A stretch of 64,000 bases of DNA, from NCBI RefSeq assembly GCF_024979255.1, contig NZ_JANLCN010000003.1, positions 186,001 to 250,000 of the forward strand, read 5' to 3'. Of this stretch, positions 23,262-35,320 are shown piece after piece. A model generated the notes under the pieces. It did not search any database and was not told where the DNA came from. It saw only the letters and a program-made list of their open reading frames with translations. A program made the translations under genes and the position numbers. Numbering within the stretch: position 1 is the first letter of the stretch; each line of letters opens with the position of its first letter. Source of the stretch: Herbiconiux moechotypicola (GTDB taxonomy: Bacteria; Actinomycetota; Actinomycetes; Actinomycetales; Microbacteriaceae).

Positions 23262-24296
23262 ATGCACCACTCCTCCTCCCCCGTGCTCGCCATCTGCGGG
23301 TCGTTCAGCTTCGACAGCGTGCTGTCGATGGACGGCCGGCCGATCGTCGGCAAGGTCGGCGGGAACGCCCTCTGGTCGGCGCTCGGCGCCCACATCGCGG
23401 GCGTCTCCCCGCGCATCCTCACCCTCGTGGGCACCGACTACCCGTCGCGGGTGCTGAGCACCCTGAGCGGGGCCGGGCTCGACGTGTCGGCGGTCATCCC
23501 GATCGACCGCCCGCACCCGGTGCGCATCACCTTCGCCCACCTCGCCGACGGCGGGCGGGTGCAGCCCGTGCCCGCCGAGATGATCGCGCACCTCCCCGAG
23601 AACGTGCGGGCGCACTTCGTCGACACCACGATCGACCCCGCCACCCTCCGGCTCGGGGCGCCCCAGGGCTTCCAGATCCCGGAGGCGTGGCTCGGCGAGG
23701 TCGACCACTGGCACCTCCCCCTGCTGCCGCTGGAACGCCATCGCAGTCTCGTCGGCCGGCTCACCGAGGCGTCGGGCACCGTGCAGACCGACTGCCCGGC
23801 CCGCTCGGACCTCCTCGGAGACCCCTACGGACGCCTCGCCCTCACGCTGCCCGACATCGACGTCTTCCTGCCCAGCACCTCCGACTTCGACGTGGTGGCG
23901 GCGGGCAGCCCACTTCCCGCGACGATCGGGCTGCTGCAGCAGGCGGGTGCCAGGAGCCTCGTGGTGAAGGCGGGCCCGGAGGGCGCCTTCGTCGTCGACG
24001 GGCCCGAGATCTGGCGCGTGCCGGCCCATCCCGACGCCCCCGTCGACCCGACCGGGGCGGGCGACGCATTCTGCGGAGGGTTCCTGGTGGGCCGCGCCCT
24101 GCAGAACGACCCGGTGGCCGCCGCGGCGCTCGGCGCCGCCTCCGCCTCGTTCGCCGTGGCCACGGAAGACCCGCTCGAGCTCGTGGAGGTCGATCCGGAG
24201 GAGGTGCGCCGGCGCGCTCGCGAGATCCTCGCCGCCGCCCACCGGGTCGAGCTCTCCGATCTCCCGGGCACCGCGGTGCAGGAGGGAGCGGCATGA
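23262..24296 (+). CDS. PfkB-family carbohydrate/nucleoside kinase
   Basis: A 344-residue ribokinase-like kinase. The N-terminal substrate loop has the paired-glycine region VGKVGGNALWSALGAHIAG, and the C-terminal PfkB signature DPTGAGDAFCGGF carries the catalytic Asp and anion hole. Family members phosphorylate ribose, adenosine, inosine, pseudouridine or related sugars using ATP. ATG 23262 has no Shine-Dalgarno but lies 9 bp after a promoter box, suggesting leaderless translation. The stop overlaps the LOG-like gene as ATGA, and a BMP nucleoside importer follows. This favours a nucleoside (or ribose freed from one) as substrate. Confidence 0.85.
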   Translation: MHHSSSPVLAICGSFSFDSVLSMDGRPIVGKVGGNALWSALGAHIAGVSPRILTLVGTDYPSRVLSTLSGAGLDVSAVIPIDRPHPVRITFAHLADGGRVQPVPAEMIAHLPENVRAHFVDTTIDPATLRLGAPQGFQIPEAWLGEVDHWHLPLLPLERHRSLVGRLTEASGTVQTDCPARSDLLGDPYGRLALTLPDIDVFLPSTSDFDVVAAGSPLPATIGLLQQAGARSLVVKAGPEGAFVVDGPEIWRVPAHPDAPVDPTGAGDAFCGGFLVGRALQNDPVAAAALGAASASFAVATEDPLELVEVDPEEVRRRAREILAAAHRVELSDLPGTAVQEGAA

Positions 24297-24983: not shown

Positions 24984-26084
24984 GTGATCACCTCCCCCAC
25001 CGGCCGCGCCGCACGGCGCGCTTCCCGCTACGCCGCCCTCGGCCTCGCCGCCGCCGCGGCCCTCTCCCTCGCCGCCTGCTCCTCGGGCGCGTCGGGCACC
25101 GACTCCACCGATGCCGCGAGCACCGACAGCGCCTCCGACTACGTCTGGACCATGGTCACCGACCAGGCCGGCCTCGGCGACAAGGGCTTCAACGACCTGG
25201 CGAAGCTCGGCCTCGACCAGAGCGTCGAGGAGCTCGGCGGCAAGGCGCAGGTGCTGCAGTCGACCGACCAGGCGCAGTACGTCACCAACCTGCAGCAGGC
25301 GGTCACCAGCGGGTCGACCGTCACCACCGGTGTCGGCTTCCTGCTCACCGACGCCCTGGTCGAGGTGGCGCAGGCCAACCCCGACGCGATGTTCACCCTC
25401 ATCGACGCGATCGCCACCGACGAGGACGGCGAGCCGCTGCCGAACGTCGCGAGCGTCACGTTCAAGGAGCAGGAGGCCTCGTTCCTCACCGGCATCGTCG
25501 CGGGCCTCACCACCGAGACCGACTCCATCGGCTTCGTCGGCGGCCTCGAGATCCCCGCCGTGCTGCGCTTCTACTCCGGGTTCGCGGCCGGTGTCGCCTC
25601 GGTCAACCCCGACGCGACGGTCACCCCCGCCTACGTGGGCAGCTTCGCCGACGCCGCGAAGGCCAAGGAGCTCGCCCTCGGCTTCTACGACCAGGGCTCC
25701 GACATCGTGATGGACGTGGCGGGCGGCGGCGGGCTGGGCATCTTCGACGCCGCGAAGGAGCTCGGCGACGGGCACTGGGTGGTGAGCACCGACACCTGCA
25801 AGGTCGACCTCGCCCCCGACAACTTCCTCACCTCCGCGGTGAAGGACGTGGCGGGCAGCGTGCTGCGTGAGAACACGGCCGCCGCCGACGGCACCTTCGA
25901 GGGCGGTTCGGTCGAGCTCGGCCTGTCGGACGACGGGGTCGGCCTCTGCCAGGACAACATCGACACCATCCCCGCCGACATCCTCGAGAAGGTCGACGCA
26001 GCCACCACCGCCATCACCTCGGGCGAGATCGTGCCGCCGGCCACCCCGGAGGAGCTCGAGACCTTCGAGGCGCCCTCCCTGTAG
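24984..26084 (+). CDS. BMP-family ABC transporter substrate-binding lipoprotein
   Basis: A 366-residue lipoprotein. The signal peptide has a twin-arginine-containing basic start, a hydrophobic core and the lipobox LAAC with Cys32, so the mature protein is anchored outside the membrane. The mature part matches the BMP/Med/PnrA family: TDQAGLGDKGFNDLAKLGLD, IGFVGGLEIPAVLRFYSGFA, and DIVMDVAGGGGLGIFDAAKE. BMP proteins bind purine and pyrimidine nucleosides for ABC import. GTG 24984 has CAGGAGT at the right distance. It is followed by a double ATPase and two permeases, the standard nucleoside importer set. Confidence 0.93.
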   Translation: MITSPTGRAARRASRYAALGLAAAAALSLAACSSGASGTDSTDAASTDSASDYVWTMVTDQAGLGDKGFNDLAKLGLDQSVEELGGKAQVLQSTDQAQYVTNLQQAVTSGSTVTTGVGFLLTDALVEVAQANPDAMFTLIDAIATDEDGEPLPNVASVTFKEQEASFLTGIVAGLTTETDSIGFVGGLEIPAVLRFYSGFAAGVASVNPDATVTPAYVGSFADAAKAKELALGFYDQGSDIVMDVAGGGGLGIFDAAKELGDGHWVVSTDTCKVDLAPDNFLTSAVKDVAGSVLRENTAAADGTFEGGSVELGLSDDGVGLCQDNIDTIPADILEKVDAATTAITSGEIVPPATPEELETFEAPSL

Positions 26085-26132: not shown

Positions 26133-27689
26133 ATGACATCACCCGCCGTCCGCCTCACCGGCGTCTCGAAGCACTTCGGACCGGTCGCGGCGAACAGAGA
26201 CATCACGCTGAGCGTGGCGCCCGGGTCGATCCACGGACTCCTGGGTGAGAACGGTGCGGGCAAGTCCACCCTGATGAAGATCCTGTTCGGCATGATCCAC
26301 GCCGACTCGGGCGCGATCGAGGTGGGCGGTGCCCCGGTGTCGTTCCGCTCCTCGGCCGACGCTCTTGCGGCCGGCATCGGCATGGTGCAGCAGCACTTCA
26401 GCCTCATCCCGACTTTCACGGTCGTCGAGAACCTCGTGATGGGCCGCGGGGCGACCGGCTGGTTCTCGCGCTGGCTGCGCCCGCTCGATGTGAAGACGGC
26501 CCGGGAGCGCGCCGTCGGTCTCTCGGAGCGGTTCGGCTTTGGGCTCGATCCGGATGCGCGGTGCGGCACCCTCTCGGTGGGGGCGCGACAGAAGGTCGAG
26601 ATCCTCAAGGCCCTGTGGGGCGGCGCCACCACCCTGGTGCTCGACGAACCGACCGCAGCGCTCTCGCCGCCCGAGGCGGAGGAGCTCTACCTGGTGCTCG
26701 AACGGCTGCGCTCGGAGGGCACCACGATCATCCTCATCAGCCACAAGCTGCCCGAGATCGTGCGGTTGTGCGATCGCGTCACCGTGCTGCGCGACGGCAC
26801 GGTCGTGGGCGATCGCGAGATCGACGACGAGGCCAGAACGGATGCGCGCGCCCGCGCCGGTCTGGAGGCCGACTTGGTGCGCCTCATGATCGGGCGTGAG
26901 CGACCGGAGACCCCCAGCCGCTCGGCGCGAGCGCTCGACACCGTGCTCGAGGTGCGTGGCCTCGGCGACGGGGGCCGCTTCGGTCCCGTCGACCTCGATG
27001 TCGCGGGCGGCGAGATCGTCGCGGTGGTGGGCGTGGAGGGCAATGGCCAGTCCGAACTGATCGACCTGCTGATCGGCGCCTCCCCCACCAGGACGGGCAG
27101 CATCGAACTCGACGGCCGGCCGCTCCAGGGCCTCTCCACCCGCCGTCGCCTCGACTCGGGCATCGCGCACATCCCCGAAGACCGCCACGAGCGCGCCATC
27201 GCCGACGACCTCTCGCTCACCGACAACGCCAGCTTCGGCTTCATCGACGGCGCGCCGTTCGCCCCGACGAGGTTCTGGCTGGGCAAGCGCGCACGGGTGC
27301 GTTTCACCGAGATCCTCATCGAGCGCCGGCGGGTGCGTGCCTCCTCCCCGGCCGCCCCCATCGGAAGCCTCTCGGGCGGCAACCAGCAGAAGCTCGTGGT
27401 GGGCCGCGAGCTCGCGCGGGCTCCCCGCCTCATGATCGCGGCCCAGCCCACCCGGGGTCTCGACATCGCGTCGACCACGGCGGTGCACGAGGCCCTGGTG
27501 GGCCTCCGCGACCGCGGCTCGGCCGTGCTGCTGGTGAGCCTCGACCTCACCGAGGTGTTCACCATCGCCGACCGGATCGTGGTGGTGCGCGGCGGCCGGA
27601 TCGTGGGCGAGACGAGCACCGGGGCCGCCGACGTCGACCGCATCGGCGCCTGGATGTCGGGTGCCGAGGAGAGGACCGCCGCGGCATGA
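26133..27689 (+). CDS. ABC transporter ATP-binding protein, tandem ATPase (nucleoside importer)
   Basis: A 518-residue protein with two ATPase domains in tandem, as in RbsA/NupA-type importers. Domain 1 has Walker A GENGAGKST, signature LSVGARQKVEI and Walker B LVLDEPTAALSP. Domain 2 has the relaxed Walker A GVEGNGQSE expected of the second half, signature LSGGNQQK and the AQPTRGLD Walker B variant. Start ATG 26133 is preceded by CAGGAGT. The end overlaps the first permease by 4 bp. It energises uptake by the BMP lipoprotein and the two permeases that follow. Confidence 0.94.
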   Translation: MTSPAVRLTGVSKHFGPVAANRDITLSVAPGSIHGLLGENGAGKSTLMKILFGMIHADSGAIEVGGAPVSFRSSADALAAGIGMVQQHFSLIPTFTVVENLVMGRGATGWFSRWLRPLDVKTARERAVGLSERFGFGLDPDARCGTLSVGARQKVEILKALWGGATTLVLDEPTAALSPPEAEELYLVLERLRSEGTTIILISHKLPEIVRLCDRVTVLRDGTVVGDREIDDEARTDARARAGLEADLVRLMIGRERPETPSRSARALDTVLEVRGLGDGGRFGPVDLDVAGGEIVAVVGVEGNGQSELIDLLIGASPTRTGSIELDGRPLQGLSTRRRLDSGIAHIPEDRHERAIADDLSLTDNASFGFIDGAPFAPTRFWLGKRARVRFTEILIERRRVRASSPAAPIGSLSGGNQQKLVVGRELARAPRLMIAAQPTRGLDIASTTAVHEALVGLRDRGSAVLLVSLDLTEVFTIADRIVVVRGGRIVGETSTGAADVDRIGAWMSGAEERTAAA

Positions 27690-28957
27690 GCACGAGCACA
27701 CCCCAACGGCCCGTCGCCGCGAGCACCACGCCTCCGCGGCAGCGACGGGCGTCGCGCATCGACGCCGACATCCTCGCCGCCCTCGCGGCCCGGCCCGAGC
27801 CGGGCGCCCGCGGATTCGTGTCGCGCTTCGTCTCGTCGGTCGCGCCCGCGGGCGCCGGCGTCGGCGCGAAGGCCGGCGCCTTCCTCATCACGGTGTCGCT
27901 GGCGCTGCTGGCCGCCCTGCCGATCGTGTACCTCTCGGGCTCGGATGCGGCGACCGCCATCGAGGCACTCCTCGGCGGCAGCTGGGGCAGCGGCCTGGCC
28001 ATCGGCGAGACCTTCGTGCAGGCCATCCCCCTGCTCATCTCGGGCCTGGCCGTCGCGGTCGCGTTCCACACGGGCCTGTTCAACATCGGCGTGGAGGGGC
28101 AGCTCGTGATGGGCGGCCTCGCGGCGGGGATCGTGGGCGCCACGGTCGATCTGCCCGGCCCCCTCCTCCTGCTCGCCTGCCTCGCCGCCGGAGTGGCCGG
28201 CGGGGCGCTGTGGGCGCTCATCCCCGCCCTCCTCAAGGCCTTCCGCGGGGTGCACGAGGTGGTGACGACCATCATGATGAACTACATCGCGTTCAACGTG
28301 TCCCGCTTCCTCGTGTCGCCCTCGGGACCGTTCGTGTCGGAGACGCAGCCCTCGGCCACCGAGAAGATCCCACTCGAGGCGCGGCTCGCCGTGGTGGCCC
28401 CCGGAACCAGGCTCCACGCGGGTCTCGTCATCGCGATCCTGCTCGTGATCGCCGTCGCCTGGCTGCTCTACCGCACCCCCGAGGGGTTCCGCCTTCGGCT
28501 CGTGGGGGCGAACCCGGCCGCGGCATCGACGGCAGGGGTCTCCCTCCGCCGCACCGTCGTCACCTCGATGCTCCTCTCGGGCGGCATCGCCGGGATCGCG
28601 GGCGCCGTGCAGGTGCTCGGCGTGTTCGGCCGCTACTACGACGCCTTCTCGCCCGGCTACGGCTTCGAGGCGATCGCCGTCGCCCTGCTCGGCGCGCTCT
28701 CGCCGATCGGCATCGCCGCGGCCGCCCTGTTCTTCGGCTCGCTCGACGCGGGCGCCGTGCAGCTGCAGGCCGTGGCCGGCATCAGCCGCGAGATGGTGAG
28801 CGTGGTCTCGGGCCTCGTGGTGGCCTTCGTGGCCGCACAGCCCGCCGTGCTGAGGCTGCTGCGTCATCTGCGCGAGCGCGCCTCCGCCCGCCGCGCCCCG
28901 GCCCGTCCCACCTCAGCGCGCCGCGCATCCGGAACCGACCCGAAAGACCCCGCGTGA
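27686..28957 (+). CDS. ABC transporter permease (nucleoside importer, subunit 1)
   Basis: A 423-residue permease of the BPD_transp_2 superfamily. About 55 polar N-terminal residues precede roughly ten membrane helices. The family features are visible: TGLFNIGVEGQLVMGGLAAG, the strongly conserved EVVTTIMMNYIAFN, and GFEAIAVALLGALSPIGIAA near the end. The C-terminus is an Arg/Ala-rich cytoplasmic tail. It pairs with the second permease to form the channel. ATG 27686 overlaps the ATPase stop; the stop shares one base with the start of the next gene. The NIGVEGQ and EVVTTIMMNY motifs are those of nucleoside permeases of the YufP/NupB type. Confidence 0.93.
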   Translation: MSTSTPQRPVAASTTPPRQRRASRIDADILAALAARPEPGARGFVSRFVSSVAPAGAGVGAKAGAFLITVSLALLAALPIVYLSGSDAATAIEALLGGSWGSGLAIGETFVQAIPLLISGLAVAVAFHTGLFNIGVEGQLVMGGLAAGIVGATVDLPGPLLLLACLAAGVAGGALWALIPALLKAFRGVHEVVTTIMMNYIAFNVSRFLVSPSGPFVSETQPSATEKIPLEARLAVVAPGTRLHAGLVIAILLVIAVAWLLYRTPEGFRLRLVGANPAAASTAGVSLRRTVVTSMLLSGGIAGIAGAVQVLGVFGRYYDAFSPGYGFEAIAVALLGALSPIGIAAAALFFGSLDAGAVQLQAVAGISREMVSVVSGLVVAFVAAQPAVLRLLRHLRERASARRAPARPTSARRASGTDPKDPA

Positions 28958-29877
28958 TGGACATCTTCAGCATCTCCCTGGTCCTCTCCGCCATCCACCT
29001 CGCGGTGCCGATCATCCTGCCGATGCTCGGCGGCCTCATCAGCGAGCGCAGCGGCGTCATGAACATCGGCCTGGAGGGCATGATGCTCGGCGGCGCGCTC
29101 TCGGCGGTGGCGATCACGTTCCTCACCGGCGACCCGTGGGTGGGACTGGTCGGCGCCATGATCTCGGGAGTCGTCTCGGGCGGCATCCTGGCCGTGCTCA
29201 CCGTCACGCTCCGCGGCAACCAGGTGGTGGCCTCGACGGCCATCAACCTCATCGGCGCGGGTCTCACGGCGGCGCTCGTGCCGATCATCTGGGGCATCGA
29301 CGGCACCACGCCGAGCGTGCCCAAGATCCCGTCCCTCGAGGTGCCGGGGCTCTCCGGGCTCCCCGTCGTCGGCCCGCTGTTCAGCGGTCTCACCCTGGTC
29401 GACTACGGAGCGATCGCCCTGGCGTTCGCCGTGTGGTGGGTGCTCTTCCGCACCGACGCCGGGCTGCGCATCCGGGCCTGTGGCGAGTCGGCCGAGTCGG
29501 CCGATGCGGCGGGCATCGCGGTGGTGCGCACCCGCTTCCTCGCGGTGACCGTCTCGGGCGTCTTCGCCGCGCTGGGCGGCGCCTACCTCTCGATCGTGGC
29601 GCTCGACGCATTCCAGGCCGGCATGACGCAGGGGCGCGGATACCTCGCGCTCGCCGCCCTGGTGTTCGGCAAGTGGCGGGTGTGGCCCGCGGTCGCCGTG
29701 TGTCTCGCGTTCGGTCTCGCCGACGCGTTCGCACTGCGCTCGCAGATCGTCGCCCCGCAGATCCCGCACGACCTGCTGCTCGCGCTGCCCTACATCCTGG
29801 CGCTCGTGGCGCTCGCCACCTTCGTGGGCCGCACCTCGGCGCCCGCCGCGGTGGGCAAGCCCTTCGCCCGCGCGTGA
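28957..29877 (+). CDS. ABC transporter permease (nucleoside importer, subunit 2)
   Basis: A 306-residue permease, partner of the preceding one. It shows ERSGVMNIGLEGMMLGGALS, GNQVVASTAINLIGAGLTAA and GYLALAALVFGKWRVWPAVA, the conserved blocks of YufQ/NupC-type nucleoside permeases. About eight to nine membrane helices are present. ATG 28957 shares one base with the previous TGA; a GTG three bases earlier is also possible. A GC-rich hairpin follows the stop, so the transporter operon probably ends here. The pairing of two different permeases is standard for BMP-dependent nucleoside importers. Confidence 0.93.
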   Translation: MDIFSISLVLSAIHLAVPIILPMLGGLISERSGVMNIGLEGMMLGGALSAVAITFLTGDPWVGLVGAMISGVVSGGILAVLTVTLRGNQVVASTAINLIGAGLTAALVPIIWGIDGTTPSVPKIPSLEVPGLSGLPVVGPLFSGLTLVDYGAIALAFAVWWVLFRTDAGLRIRACGESAESADAAGIAVVRTRFLAVTVSGVFAALGGAYLSIVALDAFQAGMTQGRGYLALAALVFGKWRVWPAVAVCLAFGLADAFALRSQIVAPQIPHDLLLALPYILALVALATFVGRTSAPAAVGKPFARA

Positions 29878-29916: not shown

Positions 29917-30900
29917 TCACGCCGACCAGCGGTCGACGTCGTCGAGCCCCTTCCGCACCACGTCGGCGGGGGCTCCGGATGCACGGAGCGAGGTGCGAGC
30001 GATGGTCGCCATCCGCTCGTCGCCGAAGCCGAGCACCTCACGGGCGAGCTCGTACTCGCTCAGCACGTCGCAGCCGAACATGACCGGGTCGTCGGCGTTG
30101 AGACTGCACGGCACCCCGGCGTCGAGCAGAGCGCCGAAGGGATGCACGTCGTAGGACTCGACCGACTTCAGCACGATGTTCGAGGTGGGGCACACGTCGA
30201 GGCACACCTCGCGCTCCACGATGAGCTCGAGCAGGCGCGGGTCTTCGACGGCGCGGATGCCGTGCTGCACGCGATGGGCGCCGAGCACCTCGATGCTCGC
30301 CCGCACGCTCTCCGGCCCGGCGAGCTCCCCCGCGTGCGGCGTGAGCAGCAGACCGGCCTCGCGTGCCACGTCGAACGCCGGGGCGAAGGGCTCGGGCGGA
30401 AAGCGGCTCTCGTCGTTGTGGAGGCCGAACGCCACCACTCCGCGGTCCACCCAGCGCGCCGCGATCCGGGCCTGCTCGACGGCGTCGGCGGGCGAGTCGT
30501 TGCGGTTGGTCGCGAGCAGCCAGCCGATGCCGACCCCGGTCTGGGCGGCCGCCTCGCGCGAGGCGTCGACGAGGATCTCCAGCGTCAGCTCGTCGGGCCC
30601 GATGTACCGGCGATGCAACGGCAGCCACACCGCCGGCTCGATCCAGACGCATCCGTGCGCCGCGGCGTCTTCGGCGAGCTCGAGCACCATGCGGCGCAGG
30701 TGCTCGGGGGTGCGCATCACGTCGACCGCAGCCTGGGCGAGGTGGTCGAACTCGATGAAGGTCTCGAACCCGGTCATGCGCGGGGTCGGCCGGCCGAGCT
30801 CGGTGGCGAACTCGTCGAGGGTCGACTGGCGGATGCCCTCCTCGAAGTGCAGGTGCAGGTGCGCCTTGGGCAGGCGGGCGAGATCGCGCACGGCGGTCAT
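29917..30900 (-). CDS. Adenosine deaminase
   Basis: A 327-residue adenosine deaminase-family amidohydrolase. The first metal site is in LPKAHLHLHFEEG (H16, H18), the catalytic Glu in TPHAGELAGPESV, further conserved residues in GAHRVQHGIRAVEDPRL, and the final Asp pair in SLNADDPVMFG. These match the zinc-dependent ADA family that hydrolyses (deoxy)adenosine to inosine plus ammonia. The usual HLDG after the second His is HFEEG here, a minor departure that could bear on substrate range, for instance N6-substituted adenosines. It converges on the nucleoside importer operon and lies 21 bp downstream of the MarR gene, probably in one transcript with it. Confidence 0.88.
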   Translation of the reverse strand: MTAVRDLARLPKAHLHLHFEEGIRQSTLDEFATELGRPTPRMTGFETFIEFDHLAQAAVDVMRTPEHLRRMVLELAEDAAAHGCVWIEPAVWLPLHRRYIGPDELTLEILVDASREAAAQTGVGIGWLLATNRNDSPADAVEQARIAARWVDRGVVAFGLHNDESRFPPEPFAPAFDVAREAGLLLTPHAGELAGPESVRASIEVLGAHRVQHGIRAVEDPRLLELIVEREVCLDVCPTSNIVLKSVESYDVHPFGALLDAGVPCSLNADDPVMFGCDVLSEYELAREVLGFGDERMATIARTSLRASGAPADVVRKGLDDVDRWSA

Positions 30901-30921: not shown

Positions 30922-31449
30922 TTACGAACGGCGTTCCTGGGCGTCGCCGGCAGCGGTGCGGCCGGCGAGCAGGCGCAGCTTCTCGAGAAGGTCGTCGGTG
31001 CCGTCGACCTGGTCGAAGAACTCCCGCTCCACCTCGTCGACGGCCGCGACCGCGCGCTCGGCGAGCTCCTTGCCCCGTGCGGTCACCGAGAGCGCCATCG
31101 CCCGGGCGTCGTCGGGGTGGGTACTGCGCACGATGAGCTCGTTCTTCTGCAGCGAGCGCAGCACCTGCGAGGCCATCACCTCGCCCATGCCGGCGTGCTC
31201 GGCCACGTGGCGCTGGTTCGGCACCGCCCCCTCGCGGCTCAGCCACCACACCGTGGCGAGCATGTGGAACTGGGCGTGCGTGAGGCCCAGGGTGGAGAGC
31301 ACGGCGTCCATCGTGCGCTGCCAGCGCAGCGAGGCGTGCCAGAGCATGAAGCCGAGGCTGTTGCCCGCCGAGTGCGTGCGGATCGCCTCGCGCAACGCGG
31401 TGTCGGAGAGGCCGTCGACCTCCTCGATCTCGTCTTCACGTACCGGCAT
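30922..31449 (-). CDS. MarR-family transcriptional regulator
   Basis: A 175-residue MarR protein with extended N-terminal helices (EIEEVDGLSDTALREAIRTH). The winged helix is PNQRHVAEHAGMGEVMASQV, with the wing at IVRSTHPDDARAMALSVT. ATG 31449 is chosen because GGGGGAG lies eight bases upstream; an in-frame GTG at 31485 would add 12 residues. The gene diverges from the Rieske oxygenase operon, and the shared gap contains direct and inverted repeats suited to a MarR dimer. It therefore probably represses that operon until a substrate or product binds. It may also drive adenosine deaminase, the next gene on the same strand. Confidence 0.88.
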   Translation of the reverse strand: MPVREDEIEEVDGLSDTALREAIRTHSAGNSLGFMLWHASLRWQRTMDAVLSTLGLTHAQFHMLATVWWLSREGAVPNQRHVAEHAGMGEVMASQVLRSLQKNELIVRSTHPDDARAMALSVTARGKELAERAVAAVDEVEREFFDQVDGTDDLLEKLRLLAGRTAAGDAQERRS

Positions 31450-31511
31450 CGGCAGCACTCCCCCAGTCGGCTCGAGATTAAACACGGTGGTAACACGATC
31501 AGCCTAGATCA

Positions 31512-31570: not shown

Positions 31571-32518
31571 ATGGCCGACCGCTTCGAACCGGTGCTGCTC
31601 GACAACGACGACACCCGGCTCCGCCGCGCCTGGCACCCGGTCGGGCGCTCGGTCGACGTGGGCGCCGAGCCGTTCCCGGCCCGGCTGCTCGGCACGCCGC
31701 TCACCCTCGTGCGCGACGGGGTCGTCGCCCGGGCCGGCCACGGCCGCGAAGACGAGCCGCACTCCCCCGTGCGGGTGGTCGAGGGCGAGGCCTGGGGCGT
31801 GCAGGAGATCTACGGACTGGTGTGGGTCGCCCTCGAGCCTCCGGTCGCCGAGCTGCCGCGCATCCCCGAATGGTTCGATCCCGCCTACCACTCGGCGGTG
31901 CTCACCCGCACCACCACCGTCGGAGCGGGAGTGCTCATCGACAACTTCCTCGACGTCACGCACTTCTCCTACCTGCACCGCCAGTCGTTCGGGCGCGCCA
32001 AGGCGGTCACCGACGAGGGGTACAGCATCATCGCGAAGGGCGACTTCGTGCAGTTGCAACATGACACCGTGCTGCAGGAGGGCCGCCGCCAGAACAACGG
32101 GGAGTTCGGGCAGCGTCGCATCGCCACCTACACCTACTGGCCCGTCTACATCACCCACCTGCAGATGTACTTCCCGGTCGACGGTGACGAGGCCGCCGCC
32201 ACCCTGGTGTGCCAGCCCGAGTCCTCCGACCTCACTCGTGCCTACGTGCTCGTGCTCATCCCGCGCACCGACCCCGGGCTCGACGACCAGGTGCGGTTCT
32301 CACGGCAGGTTCTCGACGAAGACCTCGTGATCGTGGAGCGGATGGCCGACCCGCGGCTGTGCCTGAGTGTGCGCTCGGAGCTGCACACCAGGGCAGACCG
32401 GGCCGCGGTGGAGATGCGGCGTACGCTCTCCGACTTCCTCGATGCCTGCACGGTGGCCCAGAGCACGGATGCGGCGAGCGCCGGCGCCTCCGTTCCTGCC
32501 GCGGAGGTGCTGGCATGA
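31571..32518 (+). CDS. Rieske-type oxygenase catalytic subunit lacking the Rieske domain
   Basis: A 315-residue protein that has the mononuclear non-heme iron domain of ring-hydroxylating oxygenases but no [2Fe-2S] site. The iron motif DxxHxxxxH is complete (D128, H131, H136 in LDVTHFSYLH), and a C-terminal acidic ligand is likely in QVLDEDLVIVE. The N-terminus keeps the flanking strands (RRAWHPVGRSV, LTLVRDG, then YGLVWVALEPP), while the segment that should hold CxH and CxxH is gone. NdmC, the caffeine 7-demethylase subunit, is a known case of such a catalytic-only protein. Its ATGA overlap with a free-standing Rieske protein gene suggests the two form one enzyme. Confidence 0.85.
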   Translation: MADRFEPVLLDNDDTRLRRAWHPVGRSVDVGAEPFPARLLGTPLTLVRDGVVARAGHGREDEPHSPVRVVEGEAWGVQEIYGLVWVALEPPVAELPRIPEWFDPAYHSAVLTRTTTVGAGVLIDNFLDVTHFSYLHRQSFGRAKAVTDEGYSIIAKGDFVQLQHDTVLQEGRRQNNGEFGQRRIATYTYWPVYITHLQMYFPVDGDEAAATLVCQPESSDLTRAYVLVLIPRTDPGLDDQVRFSRQVLDEDLVIVERMADPRLCLSVRSELHTRADRAAVEMRRTLSDFLDACTVAQSTDAASAGASVPAAEVLA

Positions 32519-33240
32519 CCCGCGTACTCCCCTCGACGGGCACGGCCACCGTGCAGCCCGGCCCGGTCACCCCCTCCGGCTGGTGGCCTCTGGTGTCGCT
32601 CGACGCCGTCCGCGACAGCGGGCGCACGGCGATCTCGGTCTCCATCGCGGGCAGCCCCTGGGCCGTCGTGCTCCTCGACGGCGAGGTGGCGGCCATCCGC
32701 GACCTGTGCCCGCACCGGCGGGTTCCGCTGTCCGCGGGCACCGTGGCCGATCTGCCCACCGGCCAGGTGCTCGAGTGCGGCTACCACGGTTGGTCGTACG
32801 ACCGCGCCGGGCAGTGCGCGGCCATCCCTGCCCTCGGCGAAGGTCGCGTGCCACGCGGCATGGGCAGCGTCGCGGCCCTCCGCACCACGCTCGCCGGAGG
32901 GATCGTGTGGGGCACGGCCGACGAGCTCGCGGCACCGGCTCCGGCGATCGAGGACGGCTTCGTCTTCCTCCGGCCGCAACGCGTGCCCCTCCCCCTCGCC
33001 GAGGTGGTCTCGCGCCTCTCCGGCGACGGCGCCGCCGAGGCGGTCACCGGAGTCGAGGGCTTCACCGGCGTCGCCGGTGTCGAGCTCGGCGTCGCCGGCT
33101 CGGCTCTCCGCTACTTCGTCAGGCCGATCGACGACGCGGCGACCTCGGTGTTCCCGCTGGTCGACAGCACCACCCTCGAGTCCCAGCTCCCCGCCTGGCT
33201 CGCCCGTCTCGACGGGCTCTCCGCCGCGCTCGCACACTGA
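32515..33240 (+). CDS. Stand-alone Rieske [2Fe-2S] protein, partner of the catalytic subunit
   Basis: A 241-residue protein with a full Rieske motif, C65-x-H67 (LCPHRRVPLSAG) and C88-x2-H91 (CGYHGWSYD), in an oxygenase-type Rieske fold. The remaining 120 residues (from GIVWGTADELAAP) resemble the start of an oxygenase alpha subunit but lack the DxxHxxxxH iron site. It cannot oxygenate alone, nor does it look like a ferredoxin, which is usually about 110 residues. Overlapping the catalytic-only gene, it most likely supplies the electron-donating cluster in trans. The arrangement is a split version of one enzyme; the interaction is inferred. Confidence 0.85.
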   Translation: MTRVLPSTGTATVQPGPVTPSGWWPLVSLDAVRDSGRTAISVSIAGSPWAVVLLDGEVAAIRDLCPHRRVPLSAGTVADLPTGQVLECGYHGWSYDRAGQCAAIPALGEGRVPRGMGSVAALRTTLAGGIVWGTADELAAPAPAIEDGFVFLRPQRVPLPLAEVVSRLSGDGAAEAVTGVEGFTGVAGVELGVAGSALRYFVRPIDDAATSVFPLVDSTTLESQLPAWLARLDGLSAALAH

Positions 33241-33305: not shown

Positions 33306-34376
33306 ATGCTCGTCAGCCAGATCCCGGCCCTCAAGGAGTACTGGTACATCGTCGCGTACTCCCGCGACGTCGACAAGAAACCCGTCCGTGTGCGCCTGCT
33401 CGGCGACGACTACGTGGTGTGGCGTGGCCGCAAGGGCCTCGTCGGCGCCGCCCTCGACGAATGCCCGCACCGCGGCTCGCGCCTCTCGCAGGGCTGGATC
33501 GAGAACGGCGACATCGTGTGCCCGTACCACGGCTGGTCGTTCGACCCCACGGGAGCCTGTACGCGCATCCCGCAGAACGACCCAGACAAGCCCATCCCGC
33601 CGCGCGCCCGCTCGCTCTCGGTGCTGGTGGAGGAGCGCTACGGCTTCGTGTGGGTGTGCCCCGGCATGCCGCGGGCGAACATCCCCGAGCTGCCCGAGGC
33701 CGAAGACCCCTCGTTCACGCTCATCTACGAGATCCTCGAGGAATGGGACGCCTCGGCCCCGCGGGTGATCGACAACGCCCTCGACATCTCGCACGTGGCC
33801 TGGACGCACAAGAACAGCATCGGCGACTCCTCCGCCCCGCGCGTGAACGACATGATCGTCACCCGCGACGGGCACCACCTGAAGTCGAGGGTGAGCTACC
33901 GCGCCAAAGTGAGCGCGGCCCTGCGAGCCAGCACGGGCATCCAGTCGGAGTTCACCGAGCGTGTCACCAACTCCGAACTGGTGCAGCCCTTCGTGTTCAA
34001 AGACGTGATGGAGTACGAGACCGGCATGAAGCACGTGCTCATGAAGGTCGCCACGCCGATCGACGACACGCACACGCTGTTCTGCCAGTTCATCGCCCGC
34101 AACGACGACCCCGACGCCGAGAAGCAGGCGGGCATCGTGGCGCTCGACCGGCAGATCCAGGATGAGGACAAGGAGCTGCTGCAGTGCATCAGGCCCGAGT
34201 TCCCGCTCGAGATCCAGACCGAGATGCACACGCGCACCGACCGCATGACCGTGGAGTTCCGTAAGATCCTGGCCGAGCTGGCGAGCGAGAGCTCGATGGT
34301 GCCGCCCGACCGGGCCTGGGCCACCCCGTTCCTGCAGGCGACCAGGGCCGAGGTGCAGGCGGCGGGCCTGCGATGA
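33306..34376 (+). CDS. Rieske non-heme iron oxygenase alpha subunit (VanA-like)
   Basis: A complete 356-residue VanA/phthalate-dioxygenase-type oxygenase. The Rieske cluster ligands are C53, H55 (ECPHRGSRLSQG) and C72, H75 (CPYHGWSFD). The bridging Asp and iron His residues are in LDISHVAWTH (D160, H163, H168). The family performs O- or N-demethylation or ring hydroxylation with electrons from a VanB-type reductase, which is the next gene. The opening KEYWYIVAYSRDVDKKPVRV is typical. ATG 33306 has AAAGGAC upstream. It coexists with the split oxygenase upstream, so the operon encodes two oxygenase activities served by one reductase. Confidence 0.92.
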   Translation: MLVSQIPALKEYWYIVAYSRDVDKKPVRVRLLGDDYVVWRGRKGLVGAALDECPHRGSRLSQGWIENGDIVCPYHGWSFDPTGACTRIPQNDPDKPIPPRARSLSVLVEERYGFVWVCPGMPRANIPELPEAEDPSFTLIYEILEEWDASAPRVIDNALDISHVAWTHKNSIGDSSAPRVNDMIVTRDGHHLKSRVSYRAKVSAALRASTGIQSEFTERVTNSELVQPFVFKDVMEYETGMKHVLMKVATPIDDTHTLFCQFIARNDDPDAEKQAGIVALDRQIQDEDKELLQCIRPEFPLEIQTEMHTRTDRMTVEFRKILAELASESSMVPPDRAWATPFLQATRAEVQAAGLR

Positions 34377-35320
34377 GCGTGCTCACCGAGCTCGACCTGC
34401 GGGCGACCGTGGCCGAGCGCATCGAGGAGGCCGACGGCATCGTGTCGGTGGTGCTCACTCCGCCGGCCGGGTCCCGGCTGCCGGAGTGGGCGCCCGGGGC
34501 GCACGTCGACCTCGAACTGCCGGGCGGACTGGTGCGGCAATACTCCCTGAGCGGCGACCCGGCCGATGGCTCGGGCTACACGATCACCGTGCTCGACGAA
34601 CCGGGCGGGCGCGGCGGGTCGCGGGCCGTGCACGACCTCTCGCTGGGGTCGACGGTGCGGCTGCGCGGCGTGCGCAACCACTTCGTGCTCACCGAGGAGC
34701 CGTCCTACGTGTTCGTCGCGGGTGGGATCGGCATCACGCCGCTGCGCCCCATGATCGAGGAGGTCGAACGGCTGGGACTGCCGTGGGAGCTGCACTACGC
34801 GGGCCGGTCGCGGGCGTCGATGGCCTTCGTAGACCGGCTGGTGGCGGAGCATCCGTCTCGGGTGGCGGTCTACGCGCGCGACGAGGGCGGCTCGCTCGAC
34901 CTCGCGGCCGTCGTCGCCGCATCATCCGGGGCCGCCCTCTACTGCTGCGGTCCCGGCCGCATGATCGACGCCGCCGAGACCCTGTGCCGCAACGCCGGGC
35001 GCGAACTGCACCTCGAACGGTTCGCGGCCGGCGACGGCGTCGAGGTGTTCTCGGCCGACGACCAGCCCTTCGAGGTGCATCTCGCCCAGTCGGGCATCAC
35101 CATCGTCGTCGAGCCGGGGCAGACCATCCTCGACGTGGCCGAAGCCGCGGGTGCCGACGTGTTCGGCTCGTGCCTCGAGGGCATCTGCGGCACGTGCGAG
35201 ACGCGCGTGCTCGACGGGGTGCCCGACCACCGCGACTCCGTGCTGAACGGGGAGGAGACCGGCACCATGATGATCTGCGTCTCGCGGGCGGCCTGCCCGC
35301 GGCTCACGCTCGACGCGTGA
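34373..35320 (+). CDS. VanB-type oxygenase reductase (FMN, NAD(P)H, plant-type 2Fe-2S)
   Basis: A 315-residue phthalate-dioxygenase-reductase-type protein. The flavin motif is RQYS (55-58), the pyridine nucleotide site VFVAGGIGITPLRPM (about 113-127), and the C-terminal plant-type ferredoxin domain has CLEGICGTC with a fourth Cys in MMICVSRA. Electrons flow NAD(P)H to FMN to [2Fe-2S] and on to the Rieske clusters encoded upstream. It overlaps the oxygenase gene by 4 bp. It has no extra Rieske domain, unlike NdmD, so the free Rieske protein at 32515 is needed to couple it to the catalytic-only subunit. Confidence 0.93.
   Translation: MSVLTELDLRATVAERIEEADGIVSVVLTPPAGSRLPEWAPGAHVDLELPGGLVRQYSLSGDPADGSGYTITVLDEPGGRGGSRAVHDLSLGSTVRLRGVRNHFVLTEEPSYVFVAGGIGITPLRPMIEEVERLGLPWELHYAGRSRASMAFVDRLVAEHPSRVAVYARDEGGSLDLAAVVAASSGAALYCCGPGRMIDAAETLCRNAGRELHLERFAAGDGVEVFSADDQPFEVHLAQSGITIVVEPGQTILDVAEAAGADVFGSCLEGICGTCETRVLDGVPDHRDSVLNGEETGTMMICVSRAACPRLTLDA

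Follow-up and report, generated by a model that had tools for sequence, protein, structure and literature searches.

How does a Rieske oxygenase work when its Rieske cluster and its mononuclear iron are encoded by two different genes, and how does such a pair of genes arise? A locus of Herbiconiux moechotypicola raises both questions. Within the window, by which we mean the whole stretch of 64,000 nucleotides that was analysed, a gene for a Rieske-less oxygenase subunit (A) overlaps a gene for a free Rieske protein (B), next to the genes of a complete oxygenase (C) and a reductase (Table 1). The cluster and the iron that co-operate in Rieske oxygenases sit on different subunits, and in the trimer of a one-chain enzyme about 12 Å separates a cluster from the neighbouring iron. 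Because the co-operating centers already belong to different subunits, placing them on different proteins has long been possible in principle.

Table 1. Features of the split-oxygenase locus, in positions of the window.
Feature	Position	Strand	Basis
BMP-family substrate-binding lipoprotein	24984..26084	+	
ABC transporter: ATPase (26133-27689), permeases (27686-28957 and 28954-29877)	26133..29877	+	
Adenosine/adenine-deaminase-like protein	29917..30900	-	nearest solved structures: adenosine deaminases, E=3.9e-34
MarR-type regulator, divergent from A	30922..31485	-	
Gene A, Rieske-less oxygenase subunit, 315 aa	31571..32518	+	sequence, Pfam, alignment
Codons for D128-x2-H131-x4-H136 of A	31952..31978	+	sequence and alignment
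ATGA overlap, stop of A and start of B	32515..32518	+	sequence
Gene B, free Rieske protein, 241 aa, without iron site	32515..33240	+	sequence, Pfam, alignment
Codons for C65-x-H67-x20-C88-x2-H91 of B, [2Fe-2S] ligands	32707..32787	+	sequence
Gene C, complete Rieske oxygenase with both motifs, 356 aa	33306..34376	+	sequence, Pfam
Reductase, 315 aa, flavin/NAD domain and plant-type 2Fe-2S	34373..35320	+	Pfam, identity to NdmD

The product of gene A has the iron site D128-x2-H131-x4-H136 as well as D251. In the Pfam scan it matches VanA_C (E=1.3e-15) and leaves the Rieske domain unmatched. Both cluster-binding loops of its N-terminal Rieske domain are gone, the block with the four cluster ligands being deleted relative to intact relatives, although three of the four actinobacterial A proteins still have a remnant, x-H-G, at the aligned position of cluster loop 2. 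D128 is the conserved carboxylate, and H131 and H136 are the two iron ligands; these residues and D251 are kept in all 19 Rieske-less and all 41 intact oxygenases aligned. The equivalent carboxylate is described as the bridge to the neighbouring Rieske cluster in other oxygenases (PMC12445004), with mutational support reported for the equivalent residue of CntA (PMC7948474). Among solved structures, SxtT and SxtDIOX come nearest to A (E about 1e-12). Gene B is the complement: it matches the Pfam Rieske model (E=2.7e-17), its scan finds no catalytic domain, and the four CHCH ligands are present in 14 of the 15 B-type rows, including window B, one Komagataeibacter copy lacking a Cys. Gene C matches both models (Rieske 1.3e-22, VanA_C 7.2e-22) and has SxtDIOX, SxtT, NdmA and NdmB as its nearest solved structures; of the three products it is the one that carries a Rieske cluster and a mononuclear iron site on one polypeptide, which neither A nor B does. 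A instead has what defines NdmC, an oxygenase subunit without a Rieske cluster that keeps the 2-His-1-Asp iron site. The reductase matches Fer2 (1e-12) and the NAD-binding model (3e-4) and shares 36% identity with the reductase half of NdmD. The original prediction had described A as having a full iron site with the CxH...CxxH segment missing, and B as having a CxH-x20-CxxH cluster motif without an iron site, the pair lying beside a complete oxygenase and a reductase; motifs, Pfam matches and the ligand block deleted from the A alignment bear this out.

The pair is not confined to this genome. A scan of GTDB with patterns derived from a single sequence (A), which recovers near relatives only, returned eight loci, three of them with the same split: L005 (a Subtercola MAG), L006 (an Actinomycetes MAG) and L007 (a Microbacterium MAG). 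All three assemblies are metagenome-assembled, two of them (RYN_59 and RYN_227) apparently within one project. The ATGA overlap of A and B, read from the outset in the window, recurs in all four actinobacterial loci, among which A is 49-67% identical, B 38-47% and C 67-84%. With both halves matching curated models and the pair recurring in three other assemblies, the split is confirmed. It is also rare in the genomes searched. With a four-row A profile, searches of 398 genomes of the family, 396 of the phylum and 396 of the order turned up no Rieske-less match outside the genome that contains the window; the oxygenases of the five further phylum genomes that matched at 1e-30 are intact.

A and B are probably two subunits of one Rieske oxygenase that arose by duplication and complementary loss and in which electrons pass from B to A. 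The motifs of the two proteins are complementary, with D128, H131, H136 and D251 in 19 of 19 Rieske-less rows and the cluster ligands in 14 of 15 B-type rows; their pairing and overlap are conserved, their nearest relatives are the same, and their descent appears to differ from that of NdmC and NdmD. An ancestral one-chain oxygenase of the type found in L008-L010 would have undergone tandem duplication, after which copy A would have lost the cluster-binding loops, and copy B would have kept the cluster and lost a working catalytic domain. The FNR-type reductase (34373) would reduce B, which would dock where the Rieske domain of the neighbouring subunit lies in an ordinary trimer, presumably in a complex of 3:3 stoichiometry. 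Electrons from B would then reach the mononuclear iron of A by way of the bridging carboxylate D128, and O2 and the substrate, probably a modified purine base, would react there. By analogy, electron sharing between A and B may be supported by NdmC, which is described as lacking a Rieske cluster and using the Rieske domain of NdmD (PMC4408171, PMC10380055).

With a Rieske domain of its own, gene C could supply electrons to A. The main rival to a B-to-A route is that the cluster of C does so in a mixed trimer or hexamer, B being otherwise employed, for example as a relay from the reductase to C. C, the most conserved of the three, adjoins A-B in the window, L005 and L007, and an alpha3 alpha'3 heterohexamer is described for NdmA/NdmB (PMC12445004), purine N-demethylases that mix two oxygenase chains, although there, unlike in A/B, every chain carries both a Rieske cluster and an iron. 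Moreover, a Rieske-less oxygenase in L057 has intact oxygenases on both sides, and the 16 kb of that locus contain no free Rieske protein, so that borrowing from an intact oxygenase must be considered and a B partner is not obligatory for Rieske-less oxygenases. We nevertheless regard feeding by C as unlikely. It would assign no evident task to B, which is conserved and overlaps A in four of four loci; the C gene of L006 is located ~6.6 kb upstream of A while B is still attached to A by the overlap; and the NdmC-type split, a parallel case, draws on a Rieske domain that is separate. No reductase was seen within the 9,879 bases of L006 examined.

NdmC was named in the original prediction as the closest precedent, and among studied systems this is supported (PMC4408171). 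NdmCDE is the 7-methylxanthine N7-demethylase of Pseudomonas putida CBB5, which we analysed through its homologue from Paraburkholderia caffeinilytica (L013). In the accounts available, the reductase NdmD carries the Rieske domain as a fusion, and the GST-like NdmE is required (PMC4408171, PMC10380055); three of each subunit are reported (PMC10380055), and a 2026 paper refers to the structure as still unsolved (PMC13237722). The NdmCDE locus and the window have in common a Rieske-less oxygenase with an iron site, a Rieske domain on another polypeptide, an FNR-type reductase, a BMP ABC transporter nearby and a complete Rieske oxygenase. They differ in that NdmD is a Rieske-reductase fusion (L013, L055), whereas gene B stops at 33240 and the reductase has a gene of its own at 34373-35320; in that NdmE is absent from the window locus; and in that NdmC and NdmD group with different intact oxygenases than A and B do.

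A Rieske-less oxygenase paired with a free Rieske protein is not a unique layout. We opened twelve NdmC-type plasmid loci, picked from match lists rather than sampled at random. Eight have a free Rieske protein (L015, L016, L017, L020, L021, L023, L024 and L056) and two the fusion to the reductase (L013 and L055); in the remaining two (L014 and L022) no Rieske partner was found within the stretch examined. The caffeine NdmD is the reductase-fused version. The eight free-Rieske loci are from plasmids of Alphaproteobacteria, with Rieske proteins of 177-234 codons that mostly adjoin the Rieske-less oxygenase; as in the window, a BMP-type ABC transporter is present in most of these loci. The Rieske gene usually comes first there, whereas the oxygenase gene comes first in the window; a GST homologue lies beside seven of the eight (not L023) and none in the window locus; and the Rieske-less oxygenases belong to another clade than window A. 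With five NdmE-like GST queries, tblastn found such a protein in nine of the twelve NdmC-type loci, whereas the four actinobacterial loci, for which the search took in all 64 kb of the window, gave none; a single GST query, run without a positive control, was unmatched in the rest of the window's genome. Literature searches, whose coverage did not extend to the primary NdmCDE paper, returned papers on NdmC and no study of free-Rieske loci, and the layout is established in databases and apparently unstudied in the open literature searched.

Two further observations concern these plasmids. One plasmid of Komagataeibacter nataicola from kombucha (L015, 1923-8474) carries two Rieske-less/free-Rieske pairs together with GSTs and a reductase, one of the Rieske copies lacking its second Cys. 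In L017, L020, L021, L024 and L056, which have free-Rieske pairs and a GST, the window's reductase is unmatched in the stretch examined, so their electron donor is encoded elsewhere or is unlike that of the window.

What appears to be new is the descent of the pair, which suggests that the split arose separately from that of the caffeine bacteria. The catalytic-domain tree has 60 rows (41 intact and 19 Rieske-less oxygenases) and the Rieske-domain tree 56 rows, the latter with only 110 columns and no ferredoxin rows. Duplicate loci (L001-L004, L025, L042 and L051; L027, L030 and the L050 copy of L057) were removed beforehand, and the Rieske proteins of L018 and L019 (329 and 323 aa), considered as candidate B types, were left out as being of other kinds. 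In the catalytic tree, actinobacterial A is a starred clade of four (100/99) that falls in a starred set of seven rows with the intact L008, L009:7977 and L010:7830 (99/93). The 14 NdmC-type rows form another starred clade (100/100) that excludes window A and lies next to the intact L052 (98/91), while L057, the nineteenth Rieske-less row, is placed apart. The starred branches force three changes to the Rieske-less state, and AU tests reject both a clade of actinobacterial A with the NdmC-type rows (p=0.0014) and a grouping of A with L057 (p=0.0011). The Rieske tree is similar: actinobacterial B is sister to L009/L010 (94/87), within a starred set of 14 rows that includes L008 (97/95), and the alphaproteobacterial B rows and NdmD stand next to L052 (95/81). 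A clade of B with the intact L008-L010 is not rejected (p=0.35). Derivation of B from gene C, also considered, is rejected (p=1.7e-5), and the idea that A is an NdmC orthologue was withdrawn after the trees.

Since the trees put A and B beside other intact oxygenases, their lineage appears to be separate from that of NdmC/NdmD and the likeness looks convergent; the simplest account would be that every split pair came from its own single intact parent. The opposing view, that A and B are members of the NdmC/NdmD lineage that were transferred and re-split with no independent origin, could point to the same cluster-loop deletion in A and NdmC, to the similar tails of B and NdmD and to the BMP transporter in both kinds of locus. 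A single clade of all 15 B rows also gave an AU p of 0.052, which, with a weak motif common to the tails of window B and NdmD (hhalign score 20.7), leaves some room for a single origin of B. In a repeat of this test only, the degenerate long row L015_3643_B, one of whose cluster Cys is lost, was left out, and the value for the 14 rows fell to p=0.008. Together with the rejection of the clade of A and the NdmC-type rows, the agreement of A and B with each other in their intact relatives, and the failure to find an NdmE homologue in the four actinobacterial loci, this makes a shared lineage distinctly improbable.

Two other observations were made in the course of this comparison. The intact oxygenases closest to A and B alike, in L009 (7989-10544) and L010 (7830-10526), are one-chain Rieske oxygenases of 851 and 898 aa with a long C-terminal part that, judged by eye, reads like a flavodoxin/CPR-type reductase, and they lie beside an HpxD-like oxygenase. 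The third, separate Rieske-less oxygenase, that of L057 (6155-7141, approximate start; G455:C1), sits between two intact genes, one for an oxygenase and the other for an oxygenase-reductase fusion, with a nucleoside-hydrolase-like gene beside it.

The original prediction gave B about 120 extra residues of unknown purpose. The tail exists, at about 109 residues after the Rieske domain; it looks like a worn-down, degenerate catalytic domain, and the Rieske module of NdmD has a similar tail. B tails align with one hairpin of the catalytic domain. As the hhalign probabilities are low (6%, 1% and 16%), the case rests on column shuffles, of which the tail score beats 199 of 200 (actinobacterial), 199 of 200 (alphaproteobacterial) and 200 of 200 (joint). 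After the hairpin alignment and the shuffles, a new domain of unknown kind is less likely. The tail also bears on whether B is a Rieske-type ferredoxin in a system of three components serving C and perhaps A. Rieske-type ferredoxins are small one-domain proteins of about 105 aa. Some ferredoxin models do match B (AndAb, E=3.2e-7; CarAc, E=4.2e-4), though none at its curated cut-off, and B, at more than twice that length (241 aa), has oxygenase alpha subunits as its best-matching solved structures (NdmB, 1.3e-12). It groups among oxygenase Rieske domains, albeit in a tree without ferredoxin rows, and as a ferredoxin it would still leave A without a cluster. We therefore find a ferredoxin role very doubtful.

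B evolves fast, with a dN/dS of about 0.4-0.8 (a rough value) and an identity well below that of C, which counts against the two-subunit reading. That A and B are a sequencing error in one fused frame, as the original prediction had allowed, or a decaying pseudogene, as the poor conservation of B and the lost cysteine of the Komagataeibacter copy might hint, is scarcely credible: sequencing error is unlikely because the same two frames and ATGA overlap recur in four of four assemblies, a broken ordinary gene is excluded because the catalytic part precedes the Rieske part, an order that a single frameshift in a normal gene cannot yield, and all ligands are kept, with dN below dS in six of six pairs for A and six of six for B (a rough estimate, dS being near saturation).

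Whether the case has a wider meaning seems to us evenly poised. Rieske oxygenases may have been taken apart repeatedly, with at least three separate losses of the cluster from the catalytic chain and at least two separate takeovers by a free or transferable Rieske protein of the same parent, the actinobacterial case involving two proteins without an NdmE-like scaffold; linkage of the domains would then be dispensable, and duplication with complementary loss a recurrent route to hetero-oligomeric oxygenases. NdmCDE is the one studied split and needs a GST-like helper. An apparently independent split without such a helper would offer a simpler system in which to ask how a free Rieske subunit is positioned and whether it matters that the domains are linked, and the A-B pair could give a naturally occurring template for combining cluster modules with catalytic ones. 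Many annotated pairs of a 'Rieske (2Fe-2S) protein' and a 'dioxygenase alpha subunit' on rhizobial plasmids look like halves of single enzymes.

The substrate is probably a modified purine, proposed because of the transporter and the deaminase in the window and the purine activities of related oxygenases (NdmA/B/C and HpxD). Purine oxidation is described for HpxD (PMC7373994); HpxD-type and SxtT/SxtDIOX-type oxygenases have the same catalytic-domain family (VanA_C) as A, with both domains on one chain. In L005, a SLOG/LOG-like protein (653-1225) is encoded and a PfkB-type kinase also lies beside the transporter, and PfkB-type sequence is also present near 23800-24170 in the window. SLOG/LOG-like and PfkB-type genes would fit the salvage of N6-modified adenosines.
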